Shown here piece by piece: positions 4,356 to 21,628 of a DNA stretch of 64,000 nt (positions are counted from its first letter, which is position 1; every line of letters begins with the position of its first letter). A program made the translations under genes and the position numbers. This DNA comes from Agromyces mangrovi. Its GTDB lineage: Bacteria; Actinomycetota; Actinomycetes; Actinomycetales; Microbacteriaceae. The notes beneath the pieces were generated by a model, which saw only the letters and a program-made list of their open reading frames with translations, was not told where the DNA came from and searched no databases. The stretch spans positions 1,426,001-1,490,000 of the forward strand of contig NZ_AP027737.1 of NCBI RefSeq assembly GCF_030296695.1, in the 5' to 3' direction.

Positions 4356-4374
4356 GTGTTCCTCGTGCTCGGAG

Positions 4375-4411: not shown

Positions 4412-4416
4412 ACGGG

Positions 4417-5694
4417 TCAGAACCGGGCGGTGTCGGCGACCTTGTCGACGTTGTCCGTGAACTGCTCCGGTGTGATCTCGCCGAGGATGAGCTTCTGCAG
4501 CTGCGAGATCACCTCGGTCCCGACGGTGCCCGAGTTGAGGCCGGCGTCCCATCGCGCGAGCGGGAATGCGACGTTTCCCTGCTCGAGCATCGGCAGGATG
4601 AGCTCGTACTCCGCCGGCAGGTCGGGGGTGACGCCCTGGAACGAGGAGAATGAACCGGGGTTCGCATCGACGAGCGCCTTCTGCACGTCGACCTGTGCGA
4701 GGGCGGCGAGCGCCGCGAAGGCGGCATCCGGATGCTCCGTGTTGGCGTTCACGCCGATCGGCTCGCCGGGGCCACCCACGAGCCAGCGGTTGTCGGCATC
4801 GGCTCCCACGTGCGAGAACACGCCGAAGGGCACGCCGGATTCCTTGAACTGCTCGTAGTGCCACGGACCGGTGATGATCATCGCGGCGCGTCCGGTCTGG
4901 AAGGCCTCGAGCGCCTGCTGCTCGGGGATGCCGAGCATCTCGGGCGTGAGGACTCCCTGGTCGATGGTCGCGGACCATTCCTCGACGGACGGCCCCCAGA
5001 TCTCCCCGAGGCTCTTCTCACCGAGCGCGAAGGCGACATCGTCCTCCGCGCTCCCGGCCCCGTTCTCGTAGTACGAGTTGTTGAGGTAGCCCTCGAGCGA
5101 GTGCATCGCGCGGTCGTTGCCCTGCGCGAGGCCGAATGCGATCGGGGTGATGTCGTTGTCGAGGAAGACCTGGTTCACGTCCGTGAGCTCTTCCCATGTG
5201 GTGGGCGGCTCGACGCGGTTCTGCTGGAACAGCTCCGTGTTGTAGAAGTAGGCCGAGAACCAGCCCCAGGTCGGGATGCCGTATACCTGGCCGTCGTCAT
5301 CGGTCGCCTTGAAGAGGCCTGCCTCATTGAAGCCCTCGTAGATGGAGGCGTCCTCGATGGGGAGCAGGGCCCCGGTGGTGATGAGGCTCGGGAAGTTGCC
5401 GGACGGCGTGAGGTCCGGGCCCCCACCGGACTCAATCTGCGTGTTGAGGAACGTGTTGTACTGCTCGAACTCGACGTACTCGTACTCGATCTGGACGCCC
5501 TCGGACGCCAGGTCCTCATTGGCCAGTTCGAGGCCGGCCGCGACCGTCTCCTCGGGCCACCACGCGGCGAACGTGACGGTGACCGGACCGTCCGCGGACG
5601 ATTCGGAGGCGCCGCATCCGGTCAGGCTCGCGACCGCGAGTCCCAGGACCGTGACGGCGCCGAGCGTGTTGGCGAGTACTCGTCTGTGAGTCAA
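4417..5694 (-). CDS. Sugar-binding lipoprotein of ABC importer (CUT1, MalE/UgpB-like)
   Basis: Extracytoplasmic solute-binding protein of 425 residues. It has a lipoprotein signal peptide ending in the lipobox LTGC, so it is anchored to the outer face of the membrane. The mature part has the family pattern: VTFAAWWPEE near the N terminus, GIPTWGWFSAYFYNTELF in the middle and GRAAMIITGPWHY later. The TTG at 5694 is the best start because GGAAG lies 4 nt upstream and the signal peptide then has normal length. Longer in-frame versions add a non-signal-like N terminus. It is the first gene of the operon and lies downstream of two LacI-type operators. Confidence 0.9.
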   Translation of the reverse strand: MTHRRVLANTLGAVTVLGLAVASLTGCGASESSADGPVTVTFAAWWPEETVAAGLELANEDLASEGVQIEYEYVEFEQYNTFLNTQIESGGGPDLTPSGNFPSLITTGALLPIEDASIYEGFNEAGLFKATDDDGQVYGIPTWGWFSAYFYNTELFQQNRVEPPTTWEELTDVNQVFLDNDITPIAFGLAQGNDRAMHSLEGYLNNSYYENGAGSAEDDVAFALGEKSLGEIWGPSVEEWSATIDQGVLTPEMLGIPEQQALEAFQTGRAAMIITGPWHYEQFKESGVPFGVFSHVGADADNRWLVGGPGEPIGVNANTEHPDAAFAALAALAQVDVQKALVDANPGSFSSFQGVTPDLPAEYELILPMLEQGNVAFPLARWDAGLNSGTVGTEVISQLQKLILGEITPEQFTDNVDKVADTARF

Positions 5695-5784
5695 TGTTCT
5701 TCCATTCGTCGGCGTTGACGGGATGCCGGCCGACCGCGCTGCGGGTGCCGGGAAGCGAATCGGGCTCGCGTCCCGATGACGGTA

Positions 5785-5818
5785 GCATACGTATCGGTTC
5801 AACTACCGATACGTATCG
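5785..5818. promoter_or_regulatory. Two LacI-type operators upstream of the first sugar operon
   Basis: There are two copies of an ATACGTAT-centred palindrome. The downstream copy CGATACGTATCG (5807-5818) is perfect and GCATACGTATCG (5785-5796) has two changes. Their centres are 22 bp apart, about two helical turns. Together they also form 10-bp arms ACGTATCGGT (5789-5798) and ACCGATACGT (5805-5814). The central CG is typical of LacI-family operators. They lie about 90-125 bp upstream of the binding-protein start and just beyond the LacI-family gene's stop, so that regulator is the likely ligand. Confidence 0.75.
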
Positions 5819-5850
5819 ATAACATTCCGGCAACGCCGAGGACCAGGTCC

Positions 5851-6891
5851 TCAGGAGATGCGAGCGGTCGTCTCCCGCCGCGTGATCCGACGGAGCTCGA
5901 CGAGCTCGCGGCGCCCGGGGTGGGCGTCGCCTCCGATCCGGTCGAAGAGGATCCGCATGCCTCGCTCGATGAGCTCGGCGGGTTCAGCGGACACGTTGGT
6001 CACGTGCGTCTCCCAGCCCGTCGCTCGGGCGTCGGTGCACATGCTCACCAGTGAGACGTCGCGGCCGACTCGCAGCCCCTCGACATCCAGCAGCTGCAGC
6101 ATCCATTCGGTCACCTGTGCGGTGCGCGCGATCACGCCGAGTCCCTCGGAGCGCTCGGCGAGTATGCGCGGTCCTGCTTCGCGGATGCCCGCCCAACCCT
6201 CCTTCGCACGATCGACGACCGTGAAGCCGATCCCCCGATCGACGGCTCGCCGACGTGCCGCCTCCTGGAACTTCGCGATGAACGGAAGTTCGGCGATCTC
6301 CTCGGCAGTCTCCCCGACGACCACGACGTGGCGGTGCCCCGTGTCGGCGAGCTCGTCCACGAGCAACTCGGAGGCGTGCGCCGTGTCGAAGTCGACCGCG
6401 TCCAACCCGTACGCCTCGGCGGGGAAGCCGACCAGCACCACAGGGAGCCCCAGCGCCGCAGCGACGGGAACACGTTCGTCGTCGCGCCGGATATCCATGA
6501 GCACGAACGCGTCGCAGACCCGGCGCCCCGCTAGGCGGCGGATCCCTTCCGGCCCTTCGTCCGCCGTGCTCAGCACCACCTCGTAGTCGCGCCGACGCGC
6601 CTGCTCGACGACCGCCTCGATGTAGGGCAACGTCTCCGACAGGTCGGCGTCCGCGCCGAGGTGGACGACGAGGGCGATGACGTTGGTCTTGGACCCACGG
6701 AGTGCACGCGCACCGGCATTCGGCTGGTAGCCGAGTTCGTGCATCGCCTGCTCGACTCGCCGGCGCGTGTCCGCGGCGATGGCCCGCTTGCCCGACATGA
6801 CGTACGAGACCGTGCTCTGCGACACGCCGGCGAGCTTCGCGACATCCTTGCTCGTCGGCAGCCCGCGCGGCTCTCCGTGGTTCTTGTTCAT
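5851..6891 (-). CDS. LacI-family transcriptional regulator of the first sugar operon
   Basis: A 346-residue regulator with an N-terminal LacI helix-turn-helix (TSKDVAKLAGVSQSTVSYVM, about residues 13-32), the hinge segment around GARALRGSKTN, and a periplasmic-binding-protein-like effector domain to the C terminus. It would repress the downstream ABC and glycosidase genes until the imported sugar, or its product, is bound. The strongest support is the pair of LacI-type palindromes located between this gene and the operon. The ATG at 6891 has only a weak ribosome-binding site. A possible -10 TAGGCT lies 9 nt upstream, so the leader may be very short. Confidence 0.92.
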   Translation of the reverse strand: MNKNHGEPRGLPTSKDVAKLAGVSQSTVSYVMSGKRAIAADTRRRVEQAMHELGYQPNAGARALRGSKTNVIALVVHLGADADLSETLPYIEAVVEQARRRDYEVVLSTADEGPEGIRRLAGRRVCDAFVLMDIRRDDERVPVAAALGLPVVLVGFPAEAYGLDAVDFDTAHASELLVDELADTGHRHVVVVGETAEEIAELPFIAKFQEAARRRAVDRGIGFTVVDRAKEGWAGIREAGPRILAERSEGLGVIARTAQVTEWMLQLLDVEGLRVGRDVSLVSMCTDARATGWETHVTNVSAEPAELIERGMRILFDRIGGDAHPGRRELVELRRITRRETTARIS

Positions 6892-7026
6892 GGCGCGCCC
6901 AGCCTAGTCAGCCACGCCACGCTTCCGTCCCGCATGATGCAGCCACCCGTCGGCCAGTGCTCCCGTGCTGACCCGTCGACGATCACGGCCACATCCCGAT
7001 GCGTGCGGCCTGCGAGACTTGCTGAC

Positions 7027-7611
7027 ATGCACGACTACTTCGCCGGCGACCCTCGTACCAATCGCGAGCGCATGCTGGCGGGCGATCTCTACATCGCCGA
7101 TGATCCCGAGAGCTTGCGCATCATGCACCGGGCGATGACACTCACTCGCGACTACGCAGCCGCGCTCGTCGACGACATCGACTCCGCACGCAGCATCCTC
7201 TCCGATCTGCTCGGAAGCGTCGGCGACGACGTGTTCGTGCGACCGCCCCTGCACGTGGACTTCGGCGAGAACATCCACCTCGGCGACCGCGTCTCGATCA
7301 ACTTCAACCTCACGGCGCTCGACGTCGCCGACATCCGTATCGGGGACGACGTGCTGATCGGCCCGAACGTCCAACTGCTCACCGCAACCCATCCGGTCGA
7401 TCCGCGACCGCGGCGCGACAAGCTCGAGTCGGCGAAGCCCATCACCATCCATGAGAACGTCTGGATCGGCGGTGGCGCCATCATCGGCCCGGGCGTCACG
7501 ATCGGCGAGAACTCCGTCATCGGCGCCGGCGCCGTCGTCCTCAAGGACGTGCCCGCGAACGTCATCGCGGCGGGCAACCCGGCGCGCATCCTCCGCGAGA
7601 TCCCCGATTGA
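7027..7611 (+). CDS. Maltose/galactoside O-acetyltransferase family (left-handed beta-helix)
   Basis: A cytoplasmic acetyl-CoA-dependent sugar O-acetyltransferase of the LacA/Maa group, 194 residues. The N-terminal helical part carries the family's RMLAGDLY motif. Hexapeptide repeats follow from about residue 70 (IHLGDR, IRIGDD, VWIGGG, VTIGEN, VIGAGA). The expected catalytic His is H122 in TATHPVD. The length is normal for the family. It is divergent from the LacI gene and may acetylate excess or non-metabolisable sugars, a detoxification role known for LacA. It ends at a strong bidirectional terminator. No clear Shine-Dalgarno is seen before the ATG. Confidence 0.88.
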   Translation: MHDYFAGDPRTNRERMLAGDLYIADDPESLRIMHRAMTLTRDYAAALVDDIDSARSILSDLLGSVGDDVFVRPPLHVDFGENIHLGDRVSINFNLTALDVADIRIGDDVLIGPNVQLLTATHPVDPRPRRDKLESAKPITIHENVWIGGGAIIGPGVTIGENSVIGAGAVVLKDVPANVIAAGNPARILREIPD

Positions 7612-7734: not shown

Positions 7735-10700
7735 CTACCCGGCGGTCGGTCCGTATGCCGCGACGAACGTGAAGTAGCTCGCAGCGTCGTTCGTGTTCGC
7801 GTTGTTGCCGCCGAGCGTGACGGAGTCACCTGCGCCGACGCCCTTCGAGAAGAGCACCATGTTCGCGAGCGACCCGTCCGCCACGATCGCGCGCAGGTCG
7901 GTCTCCTCGAAGCCCTGGGCGGCGACCCACTCGGGCCACCAGGTCCCACGACCGCGTGCGTCCAACGCCACGTAGACCACGGAGTCCTTCTCGACGGAGA
8001 ACTCGAGGTAGTCCGTGCCGCCGGACACGCGCTTGTCGTCGTTGGCTCCCGGGATCAGGACCGCGCCCTCCAACGCCTCCGGATAGCTCGCGAGCGGGTA
8101 GGTGCGGTCGGAGTACGGCATCACGCCGTCCTCGACCGGCCGCACCGCCTGCAGCTTCGCGGGGGCGACGACAGTGACATCCGTCGTCTCGATCGACATG
8201 GCGTCCACATCGATCGTGAACGGATCACCGGCGACCGTGACCCGCAGGCCGCTCGCGGGGTCGTCGAACTGCGCCTCCACGCTCAACTGCAGCGTGCCGT
8301 ACGCGCCGCCCGAGCGGATGACGCGCCACGTGGCCGCGACGGTCTCGCCCGGGTCGAGCGACTCGACGCCGGTGTCGGTGAGTGCCTCGGCGGTCCACCC
8401 GTCGGGAAGACGCGGGGCGAGCACGAGGTCCTCGACCGGAGCCGAACCCGCGACGCCCTCGTGTGCGAAGTTCGCCGTCACGTCGACTGATCCGCCCATC
8501 TGCGGACCGACGAACGGCTCGACGGCGACCGAGACCGGTGTGCGCTGGACCTGGAGGTGGTATACGACCGTCTGGATGTCGAGGCCATGGCTGAGGTTCA
8601 CCGCCACGTAGTGCCGGTCGCGGTACCAGTGCTGATCGTCGTCGAGCGTGATCGGTGCGGTCGTGAAGGTGCCGTCCGCCTCGATGGTCGCCGCGATCGG
8701 GGACGTGTCGCGGTCGACGTAGACCCGCAGCTGTCCCTGCTCCGGGAAGTCCGGATGATCGGCGAGATCGACCTTCCCTGTGATGGTGACCACGTCCCCC
8801 GGGACCGTGTGCACCTGGCCCGGCGCCGATGCGTCGGCCGCCGTGATCGAGATCGGCTCGACGCCCGGCACCGCGACAGCGGTCTCGTCGAGGAGGTCCA
8901 GCGGCGTGGTGTCGTACGTCGAGATCGCCCCCGTCGAGCGATTCACGAACGCCGCGTCCTCGACCACGAAGTCCGCGATGAACTTGTTGCGGTTGAATGC
9001 CGCCGCCGGATTCTGCGTGGAGTGCAGCACGAGGTCGCGCACGTGCACGTTCGCGACCGGAGACCGGGACACGGAGCTGGAGAAGCGGAACATCTGCGGG
9101 TTCCGGGAGGCGGGGAGGAGCTCCTCCGACGTCGAGATCCGGTCGAACCAGACGTTCCGGATCGTCGGGTCGAACGCATCGGCGTGCTCGAGGGACACCG
9201 TCTCCGGGTAGTCCGCATCGAACTCGACGATGGTCCAGTTGACGTTCTCGAAGACGCTGTCGCGCGCGTACCAGTTCTCGATCCCGCCACCGCGGTTCGA
9301 GTTCGTCTTCAGCTTGAACCCCATGATCAGGCCGTCACCGCCGAAGATCAGGTCGTGGGCGAACACGTCGCGGATGCCACCGGACATCTCGCTGCCCGCC
9401 GACACCCCTGCCGAGTTGCCGCCGTCGTTCCGGAACTCGCTGTTCCGGATGATCACGCCACTCGTCGGTTCGCGATGCTCGCGTCCGTTGGTGTTGCGAC
9501 CCGCCTTGAGCGCGACGCCGTCATCGCTCACCGTGACGTGTACGTCCTCGATGACGACGTTGGTCGTGGACTCCGGGTCGATGCCGTCGTCGTTGTTCCA
9601 GCCGGACGCCTGGTACCCGGTCGTCTTGTTGCTGTAGATGTCGATGCCACGGACGAGCACGTTCTCCGAGTTCATCGGATGCACCTGCCAGAACGGCGCG
9701 TTCCGGAGCTTCACGCCCTCGATCAGGATGTTGCTCGAGTGGTTCGGCTCGATGAAGTGCGGCCGGAACGACGACGTGAGCACCGTGGCATCCGCCGGTG
9801 TGTCGATCTGCACCACCTCACCGTCGCGGATCACGGGGATCGTCGCCGGCCGCGACCCGTCGTCGGTGAAGATGCGCGTCTCGACCGGGGTGTCGTCGAA
9901 GTTCATCTGGGTGAGGACGCCCTGCTGGCCGTAGTCCGCGTCCAGCGAGCGATCCTCGACGTCGAGTTCGCCCCAGTACCCCTTCTTCCACGGACGCCAG
10001 TTCCACATGTCCTCCTGGGCGTCGAGGGTTCCTCCGCCGGTGACGGCGATGTTCTCCTGCCCGAGCGCTCGGATGAACGACGCGAAGTTGTAGATGTCCG
10101 TGCCCTCGTAGCTCGTGAGCGTGACCGGGTAGTACTCGTTGGTCTTGTTGCGCATGAACTTGACGGTGGCATCCTCCTCGATGAGCAGGTTGACGTCGCT
10201 GAGCAGGTTGATCGACCCCGAGTAGTACGCCTCGTCGGCGTTCTCCGACTCACCGGCGGGGATGCGGACCGTGCCGCCACCCGCGGACGAGCAGTCCTCG
10301 ATCGCCGCGTTGATCGCGTCGCCGTAGTACCAGACGGTGCGCTCGCGGTAGACGAGCGGGGAACCCGTGTCGGCCGCGGAGCCGGACTCGTTCCCGTCGG
10401 CGTACACCTCGGTCGCCTCGCGCACCTGGTCCGCGTAGTCGTCGTCGGTGATGACGCACTCCCGCTGCGGGAACGTCGGCGTGCCGGCGTTCACCGCGCT
10501 GTCGATCTCGTCGTACCGCGCGGCATCCCAGTACTCGCCGTCCGCCGCCTCGGCATCCGGGTCATGGATGGCGACGGCGTACGAGCCCGTCGCCTTCCCG
10601 TTCTCCGCCGTCACGCCGAGCCGGTCGCCCTCGAGGACGGTGCCGATGCGTTCCGCGCCCGCGCCGTCGAGCACGACCCGGACCTGGTCCGACCCGTCCG

Positions 10701-13700
10701 ATGCGCGCAGTTCACCGAGTATCGACGCGGCCGAGCTCCCCGGCTCGACGGTGATCGTCTTCGTGCCGACGTTGCGCACGGCTGACGTCTCGTCGGCCGC
10801 GATCACCACCGTGCCGGTCGACAGGCCCTCGATCGCGGGGTCGTCGATCGGGCCCACCAGGTGCCACGCGTCGCGCTTCTTCGCGGCGCCCGGCTCCTGG
10901 TTGCGGGTCCACCACTTCGCCTCCCAGACGTTCCCGTCGTGCACTGCACGGTCACCGGCGAGGTACACCCACGACGCCGTCCACTCGCGGATCATGCCGT
11001 GCGAGGTCTCGACCTCGGCACCGATCTCCATCCACGAGCCGTACGGGTCGCCGGGGACCTGGTTCCGGGTCCACCACTGGGCCACCCAGGTGGAACCGCC
11101 GAACTGCACCTCGTCACCGGTGAGGTAGACGAGCGAGGGGTCCCACTCGGGGATCGGCGCCTCGTCGACGGACACGTCGACGGACGTCGCGAGCGACAGG
11201 TCGTCGGGGTTGGCGACAGCTTCGGGGAGCGTGACGAGGCCGTCGACCGTGAACTGCTGCGCCGCCTCCGAGGCCGGCTCGTACGAGCTGTCCTCGACGT
11301 TCCACGCGACGTCCGCCTCCACGGTGCCGGTGGTCGTCTCGACGACGACCTGCTCGGGGAGTCCCAGCGCCACCGCGGTCTTCTCGGTGCCGTTCGGCAC
11401 GCCGGTGATCGCATCTGGTGCCTGGACGGCGACGAATCGCGCCTCCTCGGGCTCCGCCTCGGTGATGGTCACGTCGTCGAAGCTCCACGTGCTGCCGTTC
11501 GCGCCGACGCCCGCGTACCCGTAGCGGTAGGTGGAGTCCTCGGCCTCGATGATCGGTGTGTCCTGGTGGTCGATGTACACCTGGATGAGGTCACCGTCGG
11601 TGACGACCTTCAGGTGATGGGGAATGCTCCAGTCGGTGTCGACCTGGGCGGTCCCCAACCGGGTGATGCTGGATCCCGCACGGTCGAGCTCGATGAGCCC
11701 GCCGTGGTTCCACGCGACGAAGTAGCCGCTGTGGTTGATGGTGTCGCTCTGCCGCGCCTTCCGGAACAGCAGCGCCGCCCAGTTCTGGCCCGACCCGTAG
11801 GAGATGTCGGCCTCGTAGGTCGCGTCCTCCCAGATCTTGTCGCTGATGGTCGACTGGTAGCGCCAGGAGTTGCTGCCGGAGCCTGCGGACTGGGTGTACC
11901 GGCCGTCGGCGGCCGACCACGAGCCGGTTCCCGGCGTCCAGTCGCCCGCTCCGTCGGCGAAGTCGTCGAAGAAGTCGCCCCCGGTGTCGAGGTCCATCGT
12001 CAGGTCGAGAGCGGTCGTCTCACCCTTGGCGACGGCGACGTCCGCGACCTCGAGGGGGACGTAGTGCTCCTTCTCGGCGGTAAGGGCGTAGCTGCCCGAC
12101 AGCGCGTTCTCGATCACGTACGCGCCGTCGCCGTCGGTCGTGGCCGAGTAGCCGCCGCCGCCGGAGGCGATCGCGACCTCGACACCGGAGACGGCATCGC
12201 CGTCGCTCGTCGTGATGCGTCCGTGGATGTTGCCGACGTCGTCGGACACCTCGATCGTGAACGGCTCGCTGGTGACCCCGTTGTAGGTCGCGGTGACGCC
12301 CACGAAGCCGACGTCGACGGGCGAGAGCATGCTGCCGTCGAGCGTCGCCGACGATCCGCCGGTCGCGATGTTCCACTCCACCGCGGCGGCGTCCATGCCG
12401 TGCGGCTTGCCCTGGGCGTCGCGCCCCGCGACCAACAGGTTCTCCAGGTCGTACCCGGTGCCGCCGATGGCGAGCAGCGGTGCGTCACCCGAGAGCTCGA
12501 GCGAGGCGAGCGCGTTCGCCGCCTGCTCCTGCTCGTCGGACGTGTAGTAGCGCAGGCTGACGTCCACGCCGGGGTCGTCGAACGATGCGGGGTCGATCTC
12601 GGTGGTCGCGGGCGCCTGGTTCACGCCGACGTAGCCCATCGGGTGGTAGCCGCCCTCGGTGTAGTTCTCCATCGCGAACCGCAGGCTCGGCACGTCGCCG
12701 CCCGGGTCGAGCACCGCGAGCTGGACGACGTAGTCCTTCGTCGGGAGGGTGTCGGGAACGGTGAACGTCCCGGACTCGGTGTGCGGCTCCGGCGCGGTCT
12801 CGTAGTCGAGCACGCCGTTGCTCCAGTTGCCGTCCTTCCGGCCGTTGAACGACGCGAAGCCGCTGCCGGGCTGCCACTCGGTGATGTGGACGTCCTCGAA
12901 CGTGTCGGCCCAGACCACCTCGTCGGTGTCGGGGTCGCGCAGGCTCACCTGCACGGGCCAGTCGTAGTACATCGGTGCCGAACCCGTGTTGGTGACGGTG
13001 AAGGAGACGTCGAAGGGGTCACCGGGCACGACCTGCTCCGGGTAGCTGAACTCCGACATGACGTACCGGTAGCCGAGCTCGCGCTGGATGACCTCGGCGC
13101 GGGAGTCGATGAGCGCCTTGTTCTCCAGGTAGGCCTCGCGACCCCCGGTGGCGTCGTCAGCCGTCCACCGAGAGCCGTAGCTGTAGTCGCCGACCCATGT
13201 CAGGTACGTGGCGTGGGTGTCGCGGATGGTGTTGGCGGTGTTGTGGGTGAGGTCCTCGTCGAGGTAGGTCTCCCGCACCAGCGACCCGTGGATCACGGCA
13301 CCGGCGTAGTCGTAGGCCGGCTCGCCGCCGATCGCCTTCGTCGCCCAGTTGTCGGCGGTGTTCCGGTTGCCGATCGTGTCGTTGTAGTGACCGAACTGAT
13401 CGGGGTTCTCCCACTGCCCGGTGTGGTGGTACCGCACCTGCACCTGCTTGTTCTGGAAGTACTCGCTGAAGTATTGCTCGATGTGCTCGGGCTCGGCGGT
13501 GCCGTGCTGCTCGCCCCACGTGCCGAAGACGCCCATCTGGATGTAGGCGACGCGGGGGTCGTCGTCCCACAGCTCGGCGAGGCGCTGCACCATGCGCTCG
13601 AGGCGGGCGTCGAACTCCGCACTTCGGAAGTCGCCGTCGGCGAGGTCGTCGGGCCAGTGGTCGCCGCCGAGCCCGTAGAACGACCCGGTGTTCCCCGACG

Positions 13701-14127
13701 TCTCCGCCGGGAAGCGCAGGTAGAGCCGCGGGATGACCTTGATGTTGTACTCCTCGTAGGAGCGCCAGACGCCGTCCGCGTCCTTGCCGCGCCAACGCTG
13801 GTCGAGGTAGTCCGCGATCTTGTCGATCGAGTCGCTCTCGTCGTTCTCCAGGTGGTCCCACGGGATGTACGTCATCGCCAGCGAGCCCCACGGCATGTAG
13901 TCCAGGGTCTGGTCCTCGGGGCTGGCGGGGTCCGTGGTGTTGACGAAGAAGTCCTTCTCCGACATCCCCATGAGTGGGTTCTTGATCGCCCCCGCATATT
14001 CGGTCGGGTTGACGACGGCGATGCCGGGTTCGACCTCCTCGGCGACGGCGGCGGGAGCCACCACCGCGGACAGGAGGAGTGCGCCGAGCGCGCTCCAGGC
14101 GGCGGTACTGCGGGCACGGATGCTCAT
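7735..14127 (-). CDS. Secreted 2130-aa multidomain enzyme: DUF4832-like, accessory domains, two CBM5/12-like modules, GH28
   Basis: Probably an extracellular pectin (rhamnogalacturonan) depolymerase. After a Sec signal ending VVAPAAVAEE, the order is as follows. Residues about 45-505 resemble DUF4874/DUF4832 (KNPLMGM, IQMGVFGTWGEQH, RELGYRYVMSE). Then come an Ig-like stretch, a carboxypeptidase-regulatory-like domain (about 630-709), a LamG/DUF1080-like domain (about 718-890) and another Ig-like domain. Two modules of the CBM5/12 type (about 988-1090) carry VAQWWTRNQ and EAKWWTRNQ. GH28 lies at about 1262-1731 with the acidic motifs NDDGID and SDDGVALK, then GSEMSGG and KLKTN. A beta-rich tail with a NEW3-like part ends the protein. 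The ATG at 14127 has AAAGGA upstream. It is last in the importer operon. Domain names other than GH28 and CBM5/12 are tentative. Confidence 0.85.
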   Translation of the reverse strand: MSIRARSTAAWSALGALLLSAVVAPAAVAEEVEPGIAVVNPTEYAGAIKNPLMGMSEKDFFVNTTDPASPEDQTLDYMPWGSLAMTYIPWDHLENDESDSIDKIADYLDQRWRGKDADGVWRSYEEYNIKVIPRLYLRFPAETSGNTGSFYGLGGDHWPDDLADGDFRSAEFDARLERMVQRLAELWDDDPRVAYIQMGVFGTWGEQHGTAEPEHIEQYFSEYFQNKQVQVRYHHTGQWENPDQFGHYNDTIGNRNTADNWATKAIGGEPAYDYAGAVIHGSLVRETYLDEDLTHNTANTIRDTHATYLTWVGDYSYGSRWTADDATGGREAYLENKALIDSRAEVIQRELGYRYVMSEFSYPEQVVPGDPFDVSFTVTNTGSAPMYYDWPVQVSLRDPDTDEVVWADTFEDVHITEWQPGSGFASFNGRKDGNWSNGVLDYETAPEPHTESGTFTVPDTLPTKDYVVQLAVLDPGGDVPSLRFAMENYTEGGYHPMGYVGVNQAPATTEIDPASFDDPGVDVSLRYYTSDEQEQAANALASLELSGDAPLLAIGGTGYDLENLLVAGRDAQGKPHGMDAAAVEWNIATGGSSATLDGSMLSPVDVGFVGVTATYNGVTSEPFTIEVSDDVGNIHGRITTSDGDAVSGVEVAIASGGGGYSATTDGDGAYVIENALSGSYALTAEKEHYVPLEVADVAVAKGETTALDLTMDLDTGGDFFDDFADGAGDWTPGTGSWSAADGRYTQSAGSGSNSWRYQSTISDKIWEDATYEADISYGSGQNWAALLFRKARQSDTINHSGYFVAWNHGGLIELDRAGSSITRLGTAQVDTDWSIPHHLKVVTDGDLIQVYIDHQDTPIIEAEDSTYRYGYAGVGANGSTWSFDDVTITEAEPEEARFVAVQAPDAITGVPNGTEKTAVALGLPEQVVVETTTGTVEADVAWNVEDSSYEPASEAAQQFTVDGLVTLPEAVANPDDLSLATSVDVSVDEAPIPEWDPSLVYLTGDEVQFGGSTWVAQWWTRNQVPGDPYGSWMEIGAEVETSHGMIREWTASWVYLAGDRAVHDGNVWEAKWWTRNQEPGAAKKRDAWHLVGPIDDPAIEGLSTGTVVIAADETSAVRNVGTKTITVEPGSSAASILGELRASDGSDQVRVVLDGAGAERIGTVLEGDRLGVTAENGKATGSYAVAIHDPDAEAADGEYWDAARYDEIDSAVNAGTPTFPQRECVITDDDYADQVREATEVYADGNESGSAADTGSPLVYRERTVWYYGDAINAAIEDCSSAGGGTVRIPAGESENADEAYYSGSINLLSDVNLLIEEDATVKFMRNKTNEYYPVTLTSYEGTDIYNFASFIRALGQENIAVTGGGTLDAQEDMWNWRPWKKGYWGELDVEDRSLDADYGQQGVLTQMNFDDTPVETRIFTDDGSRPATIPVIRDGEVVQIDTPADATVLTSSFRPHFIEPNHSSNILIEGVKLRNAPFWQVHPMNSENVLVRGIDIYSNKTTGYQASGWNNDDGIDPESTTNVVIEDVHVTVSDDGVALKAGRNTNGREHREPTSGVIIRNSEFRNDGGNSAGVSAGSEMSGGIRDVFAHDLIFGGDGLIMGFKLKTNSNRGGGIENWYARDSVFENVNWTIVEFDADYPETVSLEHADAFDPTIRNVWFDRISTSEELLPASRNPQMFRFSSSVSRSPVANVHVRDLVLHSTQNPAAAFNRNKFIADFVVEDAAFVNRSTGAISTYDTTPLDLLDETAVAVPGVEPISITAADASAPGQVHTVPGDVVTITGKVDLADHPDFPEQGQLRVYVDRDTSPIAATIEADGTFTTAPITLDDDQHWYRDRHYVAVNLSHGLDIQTVVYHLQVQRTPVSVAVEPFVGPQMGGSVDVTANFAHEGVAGSAPVEDLVLAPRLPDGWTAEALTDTGVESLDPGETVAATWRVIRSGGAYGTLQLSVEAQFDDPASGLRVTVAGDPFTIDVDAMSIETTDVTVVAPAKLQAVRPVEDGVMPYSDRTYPLASYPEALEGAVLIPGANDDKRVSGGTDYLEFSVEKDSVVYVALDARGRGTWWPEWVAAQGFEETDLRAIVADGSLANMVLFSKGVGAGDSVTLGGNNANTNDAASYFTFVAAYGPTAG

Positions 14128-14183
14128 GAGCGTCCTTTCATCGTTGAAGGGTCGTGCGGAGGGTGTTGCGTCGGTCGGTTCGG

Positions 14184-15086
14184 TCAGCCCTTGATCGCGC
14201 CGCTGGTCATGCCGGCGACGATCTGGCGGTTGAAGAAGATGAACATGATGAGCGGGGGGATCGTGATGAGCAGGATGTCCATGAAGAGGAGGTTCCACTG
14301 GTTCAGCGACTGGCTCTGGAAGTTGTAGAGCGTGAGCTGCACGGTCGCGTTCTCCTCGCCGGGGAGGAAGTAGAGCGGGCCGACGAAGTCGTTGAAGACG
14401 GTCACCGCCTGGACCACGATCACGGTGACGATGACGGGCTTCAGCAGCGGCAGCACCACGGTGAAGAACAGCCGCAGGGGCCCGGCGCCGTCGATGATCG
14501 CGGCCTCGTCGAGCTCCCTGGGGATCGTGGCCACGAATGCCCGGAACAGGAGGATGCAGAAGGAGAGGCCGAAGGTCGCCTCGATGAGGATCATCCCGGT
14601 CATGGTCTTGAAGAGCCCGATGCCCTGGAGCACCCAGATCGTCGGAACGACCGCGGGCGGGACGATCAGTCCGGCCAGCACGAAGAAATTGATGACGTGG
14701 TTCCAGCGCGAGGGGCGGCGCTGGAGGACGTATCCGACCATGGCGGCGAAGACCACCATGATCGCGACGCTGATGACCGTGAGCGTGATGCTGTTCACGA
14801 AGGCGCGGGCGAGCACGTAGTCGCGCGCCTCCCAGACCGCGATGAAGTTCTCCCACAGGAACCACCCCTGCTGCGGCAGCGAGAACTGGAGCAGCGAGGC
14901 CTCCTGTGGCGACTTCGCCGCGGTGAGGAAGATGAACGCGAAGGGGACGATGAAGACGACAACGGATGCCACGATCGCCGCGATCCCGATGAGATAGCGC
15001 TGCGAGAACCGGCGCAGTGACATGGGCCGTCGTGCGGGGCGAGTGGCCGCGCCGTCCGCCGTGGTGAGGGTTCGAGTGAGCGTCAT
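14184..15086 (-). CDS. Sugar ABC transporter permease, MalG/LplC type
   Basis: A 300-residue CUT1 permease with six predicted membrane segments and the ATPase-contact loop DEAAIIDGAGPLRLFF. The ATG at 15086 overlaps the preceding permease stop by ATGA, which implies translational coupling. It works with the MalF-type permease and the binding lipoprotein to import oligosaccharide, probably the products of the GH28 enzyme encoded 57 bp downstream. The substrate is inferred from that neighbour and from the divergent alpha-L-rhamnosidase. There is no ATPase gene in the operon. Confidence 0.92.
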   Translation of the reverse strand: MTLTRTLTTADGAATRPARRPMSLRRFSQRYLIGIAAIVASVVVFIVPFAFIFLTAAKSPQEASLLQFSLPQQGWFLWENFIAVWEARDYVLARAFVNSITLTVISVAIMVVFAAMVGYVLQRRPSRWNHVINFFVLAGLIVPPAVVPTIWVLQGIGLFKTMTGMILIEATFGLSFCILLFRAFVATIPRELDEAAIIDGAGPLRLFFTVVLPLLKPVIVTVIVVQAVTVFNDFVGPLYFLPGEENATVQLTLYNFQSQSLNQWNLLFMDILLITIPPLIMFIFFNRQIVAGMTSGAIKG

Positions 15087-16030
15087 GCTTCCACCTGCCG
15101 GCGGTTGAGGATGTAGAAGATCGGGACGATGATCGCGGTGACGACGAGGAAGAGCACCACGTTGCCCGCGGTCGAGAGGCCGTAGAACCCTGCCTGGTAC
15201 TGCTTGTAGATCACCGAGGCGATGACATCGCTGGTGAAGCCCGGCCCGCCCTTGGTCATGGCCCAGATCAGTTCGAACGAGCGCAGGCCACCGATCAGCG
15301 AGAGCAGGATGACCGTCGCGGTGGCGGGCTGCACGAGCGGCAGGGTGATGTTGCGGAAGCGGCTCCAGGCACCGGCGCCGTCCATCTTCGCGGCCTCGTA
15401 GTACTCCTGGGGGATCGCGACGAGGCCCGCGATGAAGATCAGCGTGGCGATGCCGACGCCCTTCCACACGTCCACGAGCGCCACCGAGAACAGCGCCCAG
15501 GCCGGGTCGGTGAGCCAGGCCGGCCCGTCGATGCCGATGACGGCGAGCGCCTGGTTGATGAGCCCGTCGAACGGGTCCATCAGCACCTTGAAGGTGATGC
15601 CGACGCCGATCGTGGAGACGAGCACCGGGAAGAACATGGTCGCCCGCAGGTAGCCGCGTCCGAGAAGCGGAATGGTGAGCAGCAGCGCCAAGGCGAGTCC
15701 GAGCACGACCTTCAGCGCGGAGGTCGTGAACCCGTAGACGAAGGTGTTCGTGAAGCCCTGCACGAGCATGGGCTCGTTGAAGAACGCGACGAAGTTGTCG
15801 AAGCCGATGAACTCGACGTCGAACAGGGTCCAGCGGGTGAGGCTGAAGTAGAACGACGCGAAGGTCGGGATGGCGAAGAGCACGATGTACAGCGCCGCGG
15901 TCGGGATGTAGAACCAGCTCGGGTAGTGGCTCTTCATCCGTCGCCGACGGGCTCGTGCCGACGTCCTCGGCGCGTCCGGCGCCTGCTCCGGTGCCCGCGC
16001 GGGGGCCGGAGGCGTCGCAACGGTGGTCAT
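15083..16030 (-). CDS. Sugar ABC transporter permease, MalF/UgpA/LplB type
   Basis: A 315-residue CUT1 permease. A proline/arginine-rich cytoplasmic N terminus of about 40 residues is followed by six membrane segments. The EAA loop reads YYEAAKMDGAGAWSRF. It is the first permease after the binding-protein gene. The intervening 73 bp hold a perfect 13-bp stem-loop. It couples to the next permease by a 4-bp overlap. Its likely cargo is a rhamnogalacturonan fragment, inferred from the neighbouring GH28 and GH78 genes. Confidence 0.92.
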   Translation of the reverse strand: MTTVATPPAPARAPEQAPDAPRTSARARRRRMKSHYPSWFYIPTAALYIVLFAIPTFASFYFSLTRWTLFDVEFIGFDNFVAFFNEPMLVQGFTNTFVYGFTTSALKVVLGLALALLLTIPLLGRGYLRATMFFPVLVSTIGVGITFKVLMDPFDGLINQALAVIGIDGPAWLTDPAWALFSVALVDVWKGVGIATLIFIAGLVAIPQEYYEAAKMDGAGAWSRFRNITLPLVQPATATVILLSLIGGLRSFELIWAMTKGGPGFTSDVIASVIYKQYQAGFYGLSTAGNVVLFLVVTAIIVPIFYILNRRQVEA

Positions 16031-16103: not shown

Positions 16104-17432
16104 CTACCAGCCCTCGATGCCCAGCTGCTGGGCCTGCTTCTTCACGTCCTCGTCGTAGAGGGCGGCGCCGTCCTCGGCCGAGCGGATGCCCGAGCCGACC
16201 TCGACCGCGAAGTTCTCGAGGCTCGGTCCCTTGATCGGGGAGAGGAACTCGAGGGCGGGTGCGGTCGCACCGGTGTCGAAGTAGGACTGGATCTCCGCGA
16301 CCATCGGCGCCGAGTCCGCCGGGACCTCGCAGTTGCTGGTCACGAACGGACCGGCCGCCGTGCCCTGCGCGTTCTGGATCTCGCAGCCCTGCTCGGAGTT
16401 GATGAACGCCACGAGCTGCTTCGCCGCTTCGAGCTCTGCACCCTCGGTCGTGTTGGGGATGTAGACCGCGTTCGGCTGCCAGACGGTCAGCGCGGTGTTC
16501 GCCGCGTCGTCGGCCGGCAGGGCGAAGATGCCCACGTCGCCGACCGCGTCGGGAAGGTTCTGCTGGATGTTCGGGAGCGCCGCGCCCGAGAGCATCGGGT
16601 ACATCGCTGCGGTGCCCTCGCCGACCGCGCGGATCGCCTCGTCGTTGGTCGCCGAGGCGAAGTCCTCGTTGAGCAGACCGGCGTCGTGGACCTCCTGCAG
16701 GTGCTGGAAGCCGGCGAGCGCGGGCTGGTCGGCGTACTTCGCGGCGTTCGCGGTGTAGTCGTCGGCCCAGTCGGGGTCGGCGGTGTTCACGTTGGCGAAG
16801 TCGGCCAGGATGAACAGCTGGCTCGTCCAGGTGTCACCGAAGGCCTGCTGGACGGGAACGACCCCGTCGCCCTCGGCCTTGATCTGCTCCGCCACCTCGA
16901 GGAACTCGGACCAGTCGGTCGGCACCTCGAGCCCGAGCGACTCGAAGACGGGCTTGTTGTAGATCACGCCGCCGGCCTGCGAGGTGCTGACCGGCGCGCC
17001 GTAGAGTCCGTCATCGGTCGAGACGACGCGCTTGAAGTCGTCGGTGAGGCTGTCGACCCACTCCTCGTCGGAGAGGTCCACGAGCGTCTGGCTGGGGTTC
17101 AGCGCCTGCAGGAGCGAACCGCTGTTGTAGTAGAAGACCTCGGGCATCTCGCCGGTCGCGAGCTTGGTCTTGATCAGGTTGTCGCCCTCGGTGCCGCCGG
17201 GCTGCGCCTCGTGCGTGACGGTGATCTCGGGGTACTCGGCCTGGAAGGCCTCGATCATCCCGGTCGCGAGGTTCACGGTGACCTCGTCGTTCGGCGTCAG
17301 CCAGGTGATCTCGACGGTGCCGTCGGATGAGGCGCCGCCGCCGTCGGTCGCGCATGCCGCGAGCGATCCGGTGATGAGGGCCGCGCTCGCGAGGGCGATG
17401 CCCGTGCGCAGCAGTCGGGTGCGTGAGTGCAT
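16104..17432 (-). CDS. Sugar-binding lipoprotein of the rhamnogalacturonan-locus importer
   Basis: A 442-residue extracytoplasmic solute-binding protein. The signal peptide ends in the lipobox LAAC, giving a lipid-anchored mature protein that starts CATDGGG. CUT1 binding-protein features follow: VEITWLTPNDEV, GVIYNKPVFESLGLEVP and GEGTAAMYPMLSG. The ATG at 17432 is preceded by a near-perfect AAGGAGG, the strongest ribosome-binding site in the region, as expected for a protein needed in excess. It is the first gene of the importer and GH28 operon. A LacI-type operator lies about 70 bp upstream. Confidence 0.92.
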   Translation of the reverse strand: MHSRTRLLRTGIALASAALITGSLAACATDGGGASSDGTVEITWLTPNDEVTVNLATGMIEAFQAEYPEITVTHEAQPGGTEGDNLIKTKLATGEMPEVFYYNSGSLLQALNPSQTLVDLSDEEWVDSLTDDFKRVVSTDDGLYGAPVSTSQAGGVIYNKPVFESLGLEVPTDWSEFLEVAEQIKAEGDGVVPVQQAFGDTWTSQLFILADFANVNTADPDWADDYTANAAKYADQPALAGFQHLQEVHDAGLLNEDFASATNDEAIRAVGEGTAAMYPMLSGAALPNIQQNLPDAVGDVGIFALPADDAANTALTVWQPNAVYIPNTTEGAELEAAKQLVAFINSEQGCEIQNAQGTAAGPFVTSNCEVPADSAPMVAEIQSYFDTGATAPALEFLSPIKGPSLENFAVEVGSGIRSAEDGAALYDEDVKKQAQQLGIEGW

Positions 17433-17502: not shown

Positions 17503-17558
17503 AAATGAACCGTTCCATTTCGATCGCTGACGCTAGCACCCGACGACCGATCGGTCAA
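17503..17558 (-). promoter_or_regulatory. Promoter and LacI-type operator of the importer/GH28 operon
   Basis: Read on the minus strand, a -35 TTGACC (17558-17553) and a -10 TAGCGT (17535-17530) are separated by 17 bp. Immediately downstream, 17503-17520 reads AAATGAACCGTTCCATTT, an imperfect palindrome with a GAACcGTTC core. This places an operator at the transcription start. The same core occurs in the divergent promoter at 17661-17676. Confidence 0.55.
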
Positions 17559-17633: not shown

Positions 17634-17676
17634 TTGACACGGACTCGTGGAGCACGCATTATGAAACCGTTCATTT
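17634..17676 (+). promoter_or_regulatory. Sigma-A promoter with overlapping operator for the rhamnosidase gene
   Basis: A consensus -35 TTGACA (17634-17639), a 17-bp spacer and a -10 CATTAT (17657-17662) lead to the GH78 gene 62 bp downstream. The sequence ATGAAACCGTTCATTT (17661-17676) overlaps the -10 and resembles the operator at 17503-17520. The two sites probably let one LacI-family repressor control both directions. Confidence 0.7.
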
Positions 17677-17723: not shown

Positions 17724-20609
17724 ATGAGCACGACCGCCACGGTGACGAGCCTGCGCCCGGAGTACGGGGGACTCGGTCGATGGACTCCGACCGCGCGCCC
17801 GCGCCTGAGCTGGAAGACCACGACCGCCGCCCGCGGGTGGGTGCAGAACGCCGCCCAGGTCGCCGTCCTCCGAGATGGCGTCGAGCACGTCCACGGGTTG
17901 CACGGGAGCGACTCCGTGCTGGTCGCCTGGCCGTTCGCACCGCTCGCAGCCCGTGAACAGGTGCAGGTGCGCGTCCGGGTGCACGGCACCGACGGCTGGT
18001 CCGACTGGAGCGATCGCGTGGAGCTGGCAGGCGCGTTCCTGCCCGACGGCGAGTGGTCCGCGCAGATGATCGGCGCCCCGGAGGGCCCGCCGAAGCAGCC
18101 GGCGCTGCTGCACCGCGAGTTCACCCTGAGCCGGCCGGTCGCGCGAGCGACCCTGTACGCGACCGCGCGAGGTGCCTACCAGGTCAGCGTGAACGGCGTC
18201 GCCGTCGACGACCAGGAGTTCAAGCCCGGCTGGACGAGCTACCGCTGGCGGCTCGTCCACGACACGACGGATGTCACGCAGATGCTCGCCGACGGGCCGA
18301 ACGCGATCGGCATCGAGCTCGCCGGCGCCTGGTTCACCGAGAGCTACGTCTCGACCACGCCGGGCCGCGGGCACTTCGGCGACCACCCGTCCGTCGCCGC
18401 CCAGCTCGTCATCGAGTACGCCGACGGCACCGCCGAGACGGTGGCCACCGACCACGCGTGGTCGTGCACGACGCGCGGCCCGCTCCTGACGAGCGGGATC
18501 TACCACGGCGAAGACTACGACGCACGACGCGATCTGGACGACTGGGCGCGTCCGGGCCTCGACGCCTCGTCCCCGGACTGGACGCCGGCTCGGGTCTTCG
18601 ACGACCGTGCGCCCGTGCCCGTGGCACGGACCGGGCCGCCCGTACGGGCCACCGCGAAGCTCCCGGTGGCGGAGGTCCTCACGACTCCAGCAGGGCGGGT
18701 CGTCCTCGACTTCGGCCAGAACCTCGTCGGCCGTGTCCGCTTCCGGGTCCGGGGTCCGCGCGGCACCCGCATCACCCTCCGCCACGCCGAGGTGCTCGAG
18801 CACGGCGAGCTCGGCACCCGACCCCTGCGCGGTGCACGGGCGACCGACACGTACACGCTCGCCGGCCACGAGGGCGGCGAGGTGTCGGAACCGCGCTTCA
18901 CGTTCCACGGCTTCCGCTACGTCGAGGTCGAGGGATGGCCGGGCGACGTCTCCCCGCACGACTTCACGGCCGTCGTGCTCGGTTCGGACATGGAACGCAC
19001 CGGCTGGTTCGAGAGCTCGAATCCGCTGCTCGACCGCTTCCACGAGAACGCCGTGTGGGGCATGCGGGGCAACTTCCTGTCGGTGCCGATGGACTGCCCG
19101 CAGCGCGATGAACGGCTCGGCTGGACGGGGGACATCCTCGCCTTCGGGCCCGCCGCCACCTTCCTCTACGAGTGCAACGGCTTCCTCGCGTCGTGGCTCG
19201 AGGACGTATGGATCGAGCAGGCGCAGAACGGCGGCGTCCCGCCGTTCGTCGTGCCCAGCGTGCTCGAACTCGATCCCGCCGCCGCGTGGGGCGATGTCGT
19301 GACCGTCCTGCCCACGGTGCTGCGCGAGCGGTTCGCCGACACCACCCTGCTCCGCCGCGCGTACCCGGGGATGCGCGCCTGGTGCGGCCGGATCCTTGCG
19401 CTCGCCGGCGACAACCATCTCTGGGAGGACGGGTTCCAGTTCGGTGACTGGCTCGATCCGGATGCCTCCCCGGACCACCCCGGCGACGGCAAGACCGACC
19501 CGGACCTCGTCGCCACCGCGTTCCTGCACCTCTCCCTGCGCCTGACCGCCGACGCCGCGCTCGAGTGCGGCCTCGATCGCGACGCCGACCGGTACCGCGA
19601 GCAAGCCCGTGCGGTGCGGTCCGCCTTCCTCACGACGTTCTCAACCGCCCGTGGGCGCCTCATGTCGGACTCCCCCGCCGCGTACGCCATCGCGATCGCA
19701 TTCGGCCTCCACGCCGACGAGCGCCAGCGACTCGACTTCGGCGACCGGCTCGCGCACCTGACCCGCGCGGGCGGCTACCGGATCCGCACCGGCTTCGTCG
19801 GCACGCCCCTGATCCAGGATGCCCTCACGGACACGGGTCACGCGGCGGCGGCCGCGCGCCTCATGCTCCAGACGGAGCACCCGTCGTGGCTCCACCCGGT
19901 GACCCTCGGCGCGACGACGATCTGGGAGCGGTGGGACTCGATGCGCGACGACGGCAGCATCAACCCCGGCGAGATGACCTCGTTCAACCACTACGCCCTC
20001 GGTGCCGTCGTCGACTGGATGCATCGCCGGTTGGCCGGTCTCGCGCCTGCGGAGCCCGGGTACCGCACGCTCCGGATCGCGCCGCTCGTCATCGACGGGC
20101 TCGACCACGCCCGTGCCGCCCACGAGACCCCGTACGGCCGGGCCGAAGCCGGGTGGACCCGCGCAGGGGACGACGTGACCGTGACCGTGGTCGTGCCGCC
20201 GAACGCCATTGCCGAGGTGCTGCTCCCCGACGGCCGGAGCGCACGCGTCGGATCCGGTACCTCCGCATGGACCGTTCGCGTCGCTGGCGCGAATGACGAG
20301 TCGCCACGCCTGCACCTCGACAGCCCCCTCAGCGAATTGATCGACGACTCCGAGGCGTACCAGTACGTGCGGCGGGTCGTCGAGGCACACGCTCCCGGCG
20401 AGCTGGACGAGTACGTGCACCACACCAAGTGGACGCCGGGTCGTCGCATCCGCGACGCCTTCCGCTACGCGCCGCTCGACTTCGTCGACACTCTGGGCGA
20501 CGCGCTCCGACGGTTCCGCGCAACGGACGACGCGATTCGCACGGACATCGCGACGGTGGAATCGGCCCGCACGACGGGTCCCGTACCTGCGATGCTGGAG
20601 ACCTCATGA
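17724..20609 (+). CDS. Alpha-L-rhamnosidase, GH78
   Basis: Removes terminal alpha-L-rhamnose from imported oligosaccharides. The 961-residue length and domain order fit GH78: an N-terminal Ig-like domain, carbohydrate-binding-like beta domains (the stretch with ATLYATARGAYQVSVNG), an (alpha/alpha)6 catalytic barrel, and a C-terminal beta-sandwich ending near residue 860. The signature MDCPQRDERLGWTGD lies about residue 453 and the second acidic motif is TTIWERWDS. No signal peptide is present, so it acts in the cytoplasm. The ATG at 17724 has GAAGGAG upstream. Its stop overlaps the LacI gene start (ATGA). The acidic tail after the last beta domain is unusual and unassigned. Confidence 0.92.
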   Translation: MSTTATVTSLRPEYGGLGRWTPTARPRLSWKTTTAARGWVQNAAQVAVLRDGVEHVHGLHGSDSVLVAWPFAPLAAREQVQVRVRVHGTDGWSDWSDRVELAGAFLPDGEWSAQMIGAPEGPPKQPALLHREFTLSRPVARATLYATARGAYQVSVNGVAVDDQEFKPGWTSYRWRLVHDTTDVTQMLADGPNAIGIELAGAWFTESYVSTTPGRGHFGDHPSVAAQLVIEYADGTAETVATDHAWSCTTRGPLLTSGIYHGEDYDARRDLDDWARPGLDASSPDWTPARVFDDRAPVPVARTGPPVRATAKLPVAEVLTTPAGRVVLDFGQNLVGRVRFRVRGPRGTRITLRHAEVLEHGELGTRPLRGARATDTYTLAGHEGGEVSEPRFTFHGFRYVEVEGWPGDVSPHDFTAVVLGSDMERTGWFESSNPLLDRFHENAVWGMRGNFLSVPMDCPQRDERLGWTGDILAFGPAATFLYECNGFLASWLEDVWIEQAQNGGVPPFVVPSVLELDPAAAWGDVVTVLPTVLRERFADTTLLRRAYPGMRAWCGRILALAGDNHLWEDGFQFGDWLDPDASPDHPGDGKTDPDLVATAFLHLSLRLTADAALECGLDRDADRYREQARAVRSAFLTTFSTARGRLMSDSPAAYAIAIAFGLHADERQRLDFGDRLAHLTRAGGYRIRTGFVGTPLIQDALTDTGHAAAAARLMLQTEHPSWLHPVTLGATTIWERWDSMRDDGSINPGEMTSFNHYALGAVVDWMHRRLAGLAPAEPGYRTLRIAPLVIDGLDHARAAHETPYGRAEAGWTRAGDDVTVTVVVPPNAIAEVLLPDGRSARVGSGTSAWTVRVAGANDESPRLHLDSPLSELIDDSEAYQYVRRVVEAHAPGELDEYVHHTKWTPGRRIRDAFRYAPLDFVDTLGDALRRFRATDDAIRTDIATVESARTTGPVPAMLETS

Positions 20610-21628
20610 ACGCGAAGATCGGCATCCGCGAGGTCGCGGCGCACGCGGGCGTCTCCCTCGGCACGGTCTCCAACGTGCTCAACGGTCTGCCGAGCGTGAC
20701 CCCGCGCAACGCGGACAAGGTCCGTCGCGCGATGGACGAGCTCGGGTTCGTGCCGAACGCCAACGCGCGCCAGTTGCGCGCGAGCAAGACCAACTCGATC
20801 GGCATGGTCGTGCTCAACATCGCCAACCCCTTCTTCGCCGAGGTCGCGCACGACGCCCAGGGCGTCGCGGAGTCGCACGGCACGGACATCGTCATCGCCA
20901 GCAGCGACCAGGAGCAGTCGCGCGAGGACCGCTACCTCGGCATGTTCGAGGAATCGCGCGTACGCGGCCTCATCGTCGCACCGGTCAACGGCGTCACCCA
21001 GCGGATGCAGCAGGTGGCCGCGCGTGGAACGCCGATCGTGCTGCTCGACGAGCACGTCGATGCCGCACGCTTCTGCTCGGTCTCGCTCGACGGCACGGTC
21101 GGCGGCTACACCGCCGCTCGACACCTCATCGACCTCGGGCGCCGGCGCCTGGGCTTCGTCGGCGGGCCACTGCTGCAGGTGGCCGACCGCGTCAGCGGCG
21201 TGGGCAAGGCCATCGCAGAGTCGCCCGGCGCGATCCTGGCCATGTTCGAGACCCCGGACCTGACGGTCGAGCAGGGCCGCGCCGCTGCCCACCGCATCGC
21301 CGCCCTGCCGGAGCGCGACCGCCCCGACGGCGTGTTCGCGGGCAATGACCTCGTCGCGCTCGGGCTCCTGCAGGGGCTCGCCGAGCAGGGCATCTCGGTT
21401 CCCGACGACATCGCCCTCGTCGGCTACGACGACATCGACTACGCCCGCACCGCGGCCATCCCGCTCACATCGATCGCGCAGCCGCACTCCCGCATCGCCG
21501 AGGAGGCGATCCGACTCCTCCTCGAGGAGGAATCGGACTCCGGCGGCGCCCATCAGCATCAGGAGGTCCGCCTCACGCCCGAGCTCGTCGTTCGCGCGAG
21601 CACGGTCTCGCGACCGACCCCTCGGTGA
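20606..21628 (+). CDS. LacI-family regulator of the rhamnogalacturonan locus
   Basis: A 340-residue regulator. The helix-turn-helix is IREVAAHAGVSLGTVSNVLN (about residues 6-25), followed by the hinge around ARQLRASKTNSIG and an effector-binding domain with the family motif DGVFAGNDLVALG. It is translationally coupled to the rhamnosidase by an ATGA overlap, so regulator and enzyme are made together. The GAACcGTTC-type sites in both divergent promoters are its likely targets. The effector is probably a rhamnose-containing sugar, by context only. Confidence 0.92.
   Translation: MNAKIGIREVAAHAGVSLGTVSNVLNGLPSVTPRNADKVRRAMDELGFVPNANARQLRASKTNSIGMVVLNIANPFFAEVAHDAQGVAESHGTDIVIASSDQEQSREDRYLGMFEESRVRGLIVAPVNGVTQRMQQVAARGTPIVLLDEHVDAARFCSVSLDGTVGGYTAARHLIDLGRRRLGFVGGPLLQVADRVSGVGKAIAESPGAILAMFETPDLTVEQGRAAAHRIAALPERDRPDGVFAGNDLVALGLLQGLAEQGISVPDDIALVGYDDIDYARTAAIPLTSIAQPHSRIAEEAIRLLLEEESDSGGAHQHQEVRLTPELVVRASTVSRPTPR

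Follow-up and report, generated by a model that had tools for sequence, protein, structure and literature searches.

Which enzymes are joined in a single, very large secreted protein of Agromyces mangrovi, and what glycan do they act on? The question arises from a minus-strand gene at positions 7735-14127 (stop codon included) of a 64,000-nucleotide stretch of contig NZ_AP027737.1, here called the window. The gene encodes a protein of 2130 residues. We conclude that it is probably a fusion of two genes that are kept apart in other bacteria: one for a DUF4832-barrel hydrolase with a module like carbohydrate-binding module (CBM) family 66, the other for an exo-type alpha-galacturonidase of glycoside hydrolase (GH) family 28, together serving a glycan of rhamnose and galacturonate. 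Multi-modular carbohydrate enzymes are already known; the fusion protein adds a variant and no new class.

A probable fusion of two separate proteins

The open frame spans 7735-14865 (-), unbroken for 2376 residues, and includes an ATG at 14127. This ATG is preceded by GAAAGGA, and an apparent signal peptide, read by eye, starts there; upstream of it, the open frame extends into the preceding permease gene, which is read in a different frame. An earlier sequence-only reading had called the product a very large secreted protein, and the gene bears this out. By Pfam and searches of Protein Data Bank (PDB) sequences, the domain order is DUF4832 barrel and sandwich, CarboxypepD_reg, CBM66-like module, two CBM5/12 modules, GH28, and NPCBM_assoc; residues 1953-2130 have no significant Pfam match. 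The earlier list had correctly named the two CBM5/12 modules. It had missed CarboxypepD_reg and NPCBM_assoc, both of which Pfam finds, and it had labeled as LamG-like a region that is instead CBM66/levanase-like: residues 726-889 match a levanase module in PDB sequences at E 9.6e-7 with the query alone, and a levanase CBM at 4.6e-12 with the A2 profile. The CBM_5_12 model scores 33.2 bits (cut-off 26.2) over two stretches, the best at 994-1032, and both copies, the second at 1048-1085, match chitinases in the PDB search.

A whole-protein search, with scoring limited to the 7986 candidates that have the most words in common with the query, found no other protein with the whole architecture. Nineteen proteins pass E 0.001, and only the query itself covers more than 48% of its length. 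This agrees with the earlier view that the domain order is unusual. Among 180 matching plasmid records, none contains 80% of the protein.

The two halves have separate relatives, and BLAST places the boundaries. On the N-terminal side, the alignments to P0021-P0023 (Streptomyces, 894-897 residues) begin at residues 13-22 and stop at 891; the match to P0024 stops at 892. P0021-P0023, with P0006 and P0015 of Paenibacillus and P0004, keep the same domain order over about residues 16-891 at 47-62% identity, but none matches the CBM5/12 joint or GH28; SLH domains are listed for P0004 and P0006. On the C-terminal side, relatives begin near their own N-termini at residue 1103 (P0003, P0141, P0145, and P0158), 1100 (P0007), or 1093 (P0171). 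The stand-alone GH28 and NPCBM_assoc proteins P0003, P0007, and P0141 are 51-63% identical from about 1100 to 2123-2128, with no DUF4832 or CBM5/12 domain listed. Between the two sets lies a joint of 211 residues, outside the matches to both, that holds, besides the two CBM5/12 modules, a stretch that looks Ig-like by eye.

In some Streptomyces strains, the two halves occur in one genome. Strains NPDC003247, NPDC090106, and NPDC059787 are listed for both, on contigs of equal size (382086, 117467, and 82517, respectively), so the halves are perhaps neighbors there. These strains make up 3 of the 5 N-half relatives at 61% identity or more, and the remaining 2 are listed under no strain name; 10 of the 13 named Streptomyces GH28-half clusters have no N-half partner among the N-half matches listed. 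The genus of genome G224 gave no real N-half match in 392 genomes (one weak piece at 31%), and GH28-half matches in 16 of 150 genomes, all partial pieces at 30-48% identity. A literature search found no paper on a multimodular pectin enzyme with GH28 and CBM66, and none on a bifunctional multidomain GH28 rhamnogalacturonan enzyme.

The N-terminal barrel

The N-terminal domain had been read as DUF4874/DUF4832-like. DUF4832 (PF16116) matches residues 291-423 at 4e-15, with 56.5 bits against a curated cut-off of 29.2. The DUF4874 part of the label does not hold: Pfam gives no match to it in the protein at E up to 1. The DUF4874 model does match some distant members of the DUF4832 family, mostly below its cut-off. 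Structure prediction gives a confident triosephosphate isomerase (TIM) barrel, with a predicted local distance difference score (pLDDT) of 89, in keeping with the earlier idea of a second catalytic barrel; a stretch once called Ig-like (355-502) belongs, in the model, to the DUF4832 sandwich itself. Against PDB sequences, the A2 profile finds no barrel match at E up to 10, only CBM66, CarboxypepD-like, and unrelated parts. Fold matches of the barrel lie at 6-15% identity, and the families considered were GH14, GH35, GH5, GH10, and GH39.

The candidate for the catalytic acid pair that the sequence-only reading had suggested looking for in this barrel is Glu206 and Glu269. Together with Asp250, both stay unchanged across all 74 sequences of the alignment, the query being one of them. 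By DSSP of the model, in which strand 4 is fragmented, Glu206 follows strand 4 and Glu269 stands at the end of strand 7. Glutamates on strands 4 and 7 are the arrangement of TIM-barrel hydrolases of clan GH-A and of GH14. A wider set of residues (R134, G202, W204, E206, H208, R232, D250, G268, and E269) is identical in 14 of 14 sequences, including those of loci L065-L068.

One family member has been studied at the bench. SIR_1591 of Streptococcus intermedius has a TIM barrel, DUF4832, and a predicted transmembrane helix within about 468 residues and is reported as an active glycoside hydrolase acting on Pel; the purified protein disrupts Pel-dependent aggregates, and the deletion mutant is described as having no phenotype (PMC12345266). 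It is the only reported assay of a DUF4832-barrel member that the literature search found, and searches on the barrel family and on gene fusions listed no other paper about the family. Since it is reported active, the barrel of the fusion protein is likely a second catalytic module, and it does not form a wholly unknown class of enzyme. By the paper's description, SIR_1591 shares the barrel-then-sandwich fold with the fusion protein; unlike SIR_1591, the fusion protein is joined to CBMs and GH28. DUF4832 genes have also been described as contiguous with pel operons, along with PelD proteins that carry an N-terminal epimerase domain (PMC7112168); the main text of that paper does not name Paenibacillus. 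A rumen metaproteome lists a cellulosomal DUF4874-DUF4832-dockerin protein (PMC7480376).

DUF4832 genes beside pel-type biosynthesis genes were seen at L065-L068, in the group of Paenibacillus genome G871. At L065, Pfam places the DUF4832 gene beside genes for an epimerase with DUF4118, for DUF2194, and for DUF3492 with GT4, a neighborhood whose predicted domains fit a pel cluster; for L066-L068, the resemblance is a judgment from the lengths and order of the genes alone. The L065 protein shares E206, E269, D250, R134, and R232 with the fusion protein, whose barrel is only 27-28% identical to this group. On the other side of the L065 DUF4832 gene is a gene of the uroporphyrinogen-decarboxylase family.

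The GH28 half

Glyco_hydro_28 matches best over residues 1454-1665 (4e-13; 49.8 bits, cut-off 22.9). The motifs NDDGID, SDDGVALK, and GSEMSGG, as first noticed, are all present and align with the Thermotoga maritima exo-polygalacturonase 3jur. Of the catalytic aspartates, D1514 is kept in 62 of 63 aligned sequences, and D1535 and D1536 in all 63. The substrate-binding motif RIK is replaced by KLK, with Lys1605 opposite the Arg of 3jur and 1bhe (RxK in 3jur, KxK here); Lys occupies this position in 61 of the 63 sequences. The galacturonidase 5olp, so named by its PDB title, has Phe in the same column; hence not every GH28 enzyme carries the Arg.

This half is closer to the exo-galacturonidases 3jur and 5olp than to the endo-rhamnogalacturonase 1rmg; of the Foldseek matches to its model, only GH28 and beta-helix proteins were used. 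In contrast to exo-type enzymes (3jur, 5olp, and the BT4155 type), the protein has extra N- and C-terminal domains, and the loop ahead of its first catalytic motif is longer. The model for BT4155-type alpha-D-galacturonidases, NF049892, gives 182 bits, below its curated cut-off of 800. The protein had been proposed to be a dual-activity rhamnogalacturonan enzyme: the two-enzyme part is supported, whereas rhamnogalacturonan stays a proposed substrate, the relationship to 3jur and 5olp being nearer than that to 1rmg.

P0005, an SLH-domain protein of 2528 residues, has two stretches that match the GH28 half, the second at 53% identity.

The importer, the rhamnosidase, and the operators

The fusion gene is the last gene of an importer operon, after a solute-binding protein and two permeases of an ATP-binding cassette (ABC) transporter. 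The importer lies directly upstream on the same strand, as expected if the enzyme is encoded with its own importer. Divergent from the operon is the gene for a GH78 alpha-L-rhamnosidase (best PDB match 6gsz, 2.9e-195), in which no signal peptide is apparent by eye; a LacI-family regulator lies downstream of it. The binding protein of the importer matches, among other sugar-binding proteins, those for chitin oligosaccharides.

A LacI-type palindrome occurs twice between the divergent genes. With at most 2 mismatches allowed, a 15-base pattern derived from the 17661 copy finds only 17504 and 17661 in the 3.6-Mb genome, and the reversed control finds 0. Because the pattern was drawn from 17661 itself, the finding consists of the second copy and the absence elsewhere. 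A 16-base palindrome pattern finds only the 17661 copy in the window. Among the eight stretches scanned, other single palindromes occur, so a lone one means little.

A second importer lies directly downstream of the fusion gene (2545-6891, -): a solute-binding protein (4420-5802), permease open frames (3474-4355 and 2545-3885), and a LacI regulator (5851-6891) of its own; a near-perfect palindrome (5805) stands shortly before the start of the solute-binding gene. The gene for a hexapeptide protein like maltose acetyltransferase (6661-7608, +) sits between the two operons for transport and is transcribed toward the fusion gene.

Table 1. Features of the fusion gene and its locus, in window coordinates
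Feature	Position	Strand	Basis
Whole gene, 2130-residue fusion protein	7735..14127	-	Open frame, start context, Pfam
Signal peptide, residues 1 to about 29	14041..14127	-	By eye; predicted helix 9-18, low confidence
TIM barrel, DUF4832 family, residues 45-350	13078..13995	-	Structure model, fold search, alignment
Glu206 codon 13510-13512; Glu269 codon 13321-13323	Within barrel	-	Alignment
Beta-sandwich, C-terminal part of DUF4832, residues 351-505	12613..13077	-	Pfam, structure model
CarboxypepD_reg Ig-like domain, residues 634-711	11995..12228	-	Pfam
CBM66-like (levanase-type) module, residues 723-891	11455..11961	-	PDB sequence search, profile search, BLAST
Joint between halves, residues 892-1102	10822..11454	-	Outside BLAST matches to separate proteins of both kinds
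CBM5/12 module 1, residues 994-1032	11032..11148	-	Pfam, PDB sequence search
CBM5/12 module 2, residues 1048-1085	10873..10986	-	Pfam, PDB sequence search
GH28 beta-helix, residues about 1220-1739; catalytic Asp1514, 1535, 1536; Lys1605	8911..10470	-	Alignment, structure model, sequence searches
NPCBM_assoc domain, residues 1881-1952	8272..8487	-	Pfam
C-terminal region, residues 1953-2130, common to P0003, P0007, P0141	7738..8271	-	BLAST
ABC permease, second of pair (approximate start)	14184..15080	-	Pfam
ABC permease, first of pair	15083..16030	-	Pfam
ABC solute-binding protein, first operon gene	16104..17432	-	Pfam, sequence searches
LacI-type palindrome, copy 1 (imperfect)	17504..17519		Pattern search
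LacI-type palindrome, copy 2	17661..17675		Pattern search
GH78 alpha-L-rhamnosidase	17724..20609	+	Pfam, PDB match; AAGGAG before ATG 17724
LacI-family regulator, open frame as listed; true start probably later	20429..21628	+	Pfam

A proposed working and its alternatives

The best-supported reading is of two catalytic modules in one secreted chain. The type of GH28 and the GH78 neighbor lead us, with moderate confidence, to a substrate containing rhamnose and galacturonate, likely a target such as rhamnogalacturonan I or its side chains. The protein would be secreted by its apparent signal peptide and anchored on the substrate by its binding modules. There, the barrel would cut one linkage with Glu206 and Glu269 as acid/base pair, as their fold, strand positions, and invariance suggest, and the GH28 part, judged by its family, would remove terminal galacturonate or a related uronate. 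Products would be taken up by the upstream ABC importer, and GH78, with no apparent signal peptide, would remove rhamnose inside the cell. The local LacI repressor, acting on the two operator copies, may switch on importer, fusion protein, and rhamnosidase together.

The fusion hints that both enzymes act on the same rhamnose-containing material. It may further name the partner and the substrate class of the barrel family, the barrel opening a branch or the backbone of a rhamnose/galacturonate glycan for the GH28 half; we see this as an evenly balanced proposition. If true, the activity would be one undescribed for the DUF4832 family in the literature found. The fusion and the separate Streptomyces copies offer a concrete clue to what is cut by the non-pel branch of DUF4832, and the locus, with importer, rhamnosidase, and operator, makes the substrate question testable with ordinary assays.

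Several points weigh against two enzymes on such a glycan. The TM-scores of the barrel against known structures are low (Foldseek); the activity evidence for SIR_1591 is indirect, being disruption of aggregates (PMC12345266); and both the substrate of SIR_1591 and the CBM5/12 modules point to an amino-sugar polymer. Taken furthest, this last point gives a reading that we consider unlikely: the barrel is catalytic on an amino-sugar or other exopolysaccharide, such as biofilm matrix, the CBM5/12 modules bind a polymer of the N-acetylglucosamine type, and GH28 attacks a uronate of that material, be it bacterial or fungal. The assayed family member does act on a polymer rich in N-acetylgalactosamine (PMC12345266), a DUF4832 protein encoded next to a pel-type cluster shares the active-site residues, and chitin-related matches are found for the CBM5/12 modules and the importer binding protein. 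However, the divergent neighbor is an alpha-L-rhamnosidase, the second half is closest to exo-galacturonidases, and identity to the pel-type group is low.

It is distinctly improbable that the barrel is a non-catalytic platform for binding or spacing, with only GH28 at work. Such a role would suit the aggregate assay and the silent deletion of SIR_1591 (PMC12345266), and the activity of this barrel subgroup is itself a prediction; yet E206, D250, and E269 are kept in every aligned sequence, the fusion protein included, and hydrolase activity is reported for one family member (PMC12345266). Least probable is the reading in which an error of assembly or annotation merged two genes: the whole architecture occurs in one protein only and the one-contig genome has a stated completeness of 95.35 and contamination of 4.41, but the frame is uninterrupted, intact CBM5/12 modules lie in the joint, beyond the reach of the matches to separate relatives, and inspection by eye shows no second signal peptide downstream of it.

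Related loci and distribution

At L002 and L003, two loci of Paenibacillus, the DUF4832 gene directly follows importer genes and a gene with the rhamnosidase fold. No GH28 gene lies among the scanned neighbors; the GH28 matches in these genomes are only partial, with 28-44% identity, and fall on other contigs. The window's GH78 and the Paenibacillus rhamnosidase-fold protein do not match at E 1e-5, and the claim that both places have a rhamnosidase goes no further than the Pfam domain. Orthology of the importers was considered and is not used as evidence: the permeases are 34-40% identical, and the window's other importer scores equally.

Among 100 relatives, own genome included, the DUF4832 model matches 3 and the GH28-half query 10, the GH28-half matches outside the own genome being partial at 31-46% identity. 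Across the phylum (396 genomes), the barrel query returns its own sequence and, beyond that, only three weak pieces in two genomes. No close copy of either half was found in 59 other sampled genomes of the genus, and for this reason the gene was likely gained by transfer. More widely, the group of genome G871 has a barrel match of some kind in 26 of 51 genomes, and DUF4832-barrel proteins are widespread, with Streptomyces, Paenibacillus, Bacteroides, Planctomycetes, and others named among the matches listed.

The barrel is also found in other combinations. P0082, P0089, and P0137 (clusters of 241, 775, and 241 sequences) join DUF4832 to the nucleoside-hydrolase domain PF01156, another fusion partner of the family. 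An SLH-domain protein of 1548 residues (L070:6595-11238), whose gene adjoins an oxidoreductase and an importer, carries DUF4832 after a Glyco_hydro_42 match (31.1 bits, cut-off 21); this domain order may be an independent sign of a beta-galactosidase-like DUF4832 barrel. A further SLH-domain protein, of 2132 residues (L064:13294-19692), with two DUF4832 stretches and CBM_11, is another large multi-module use of the barrel; about 7 kb away from it lies a 976-residue DUF4832-fn3-CBM_6 protein.

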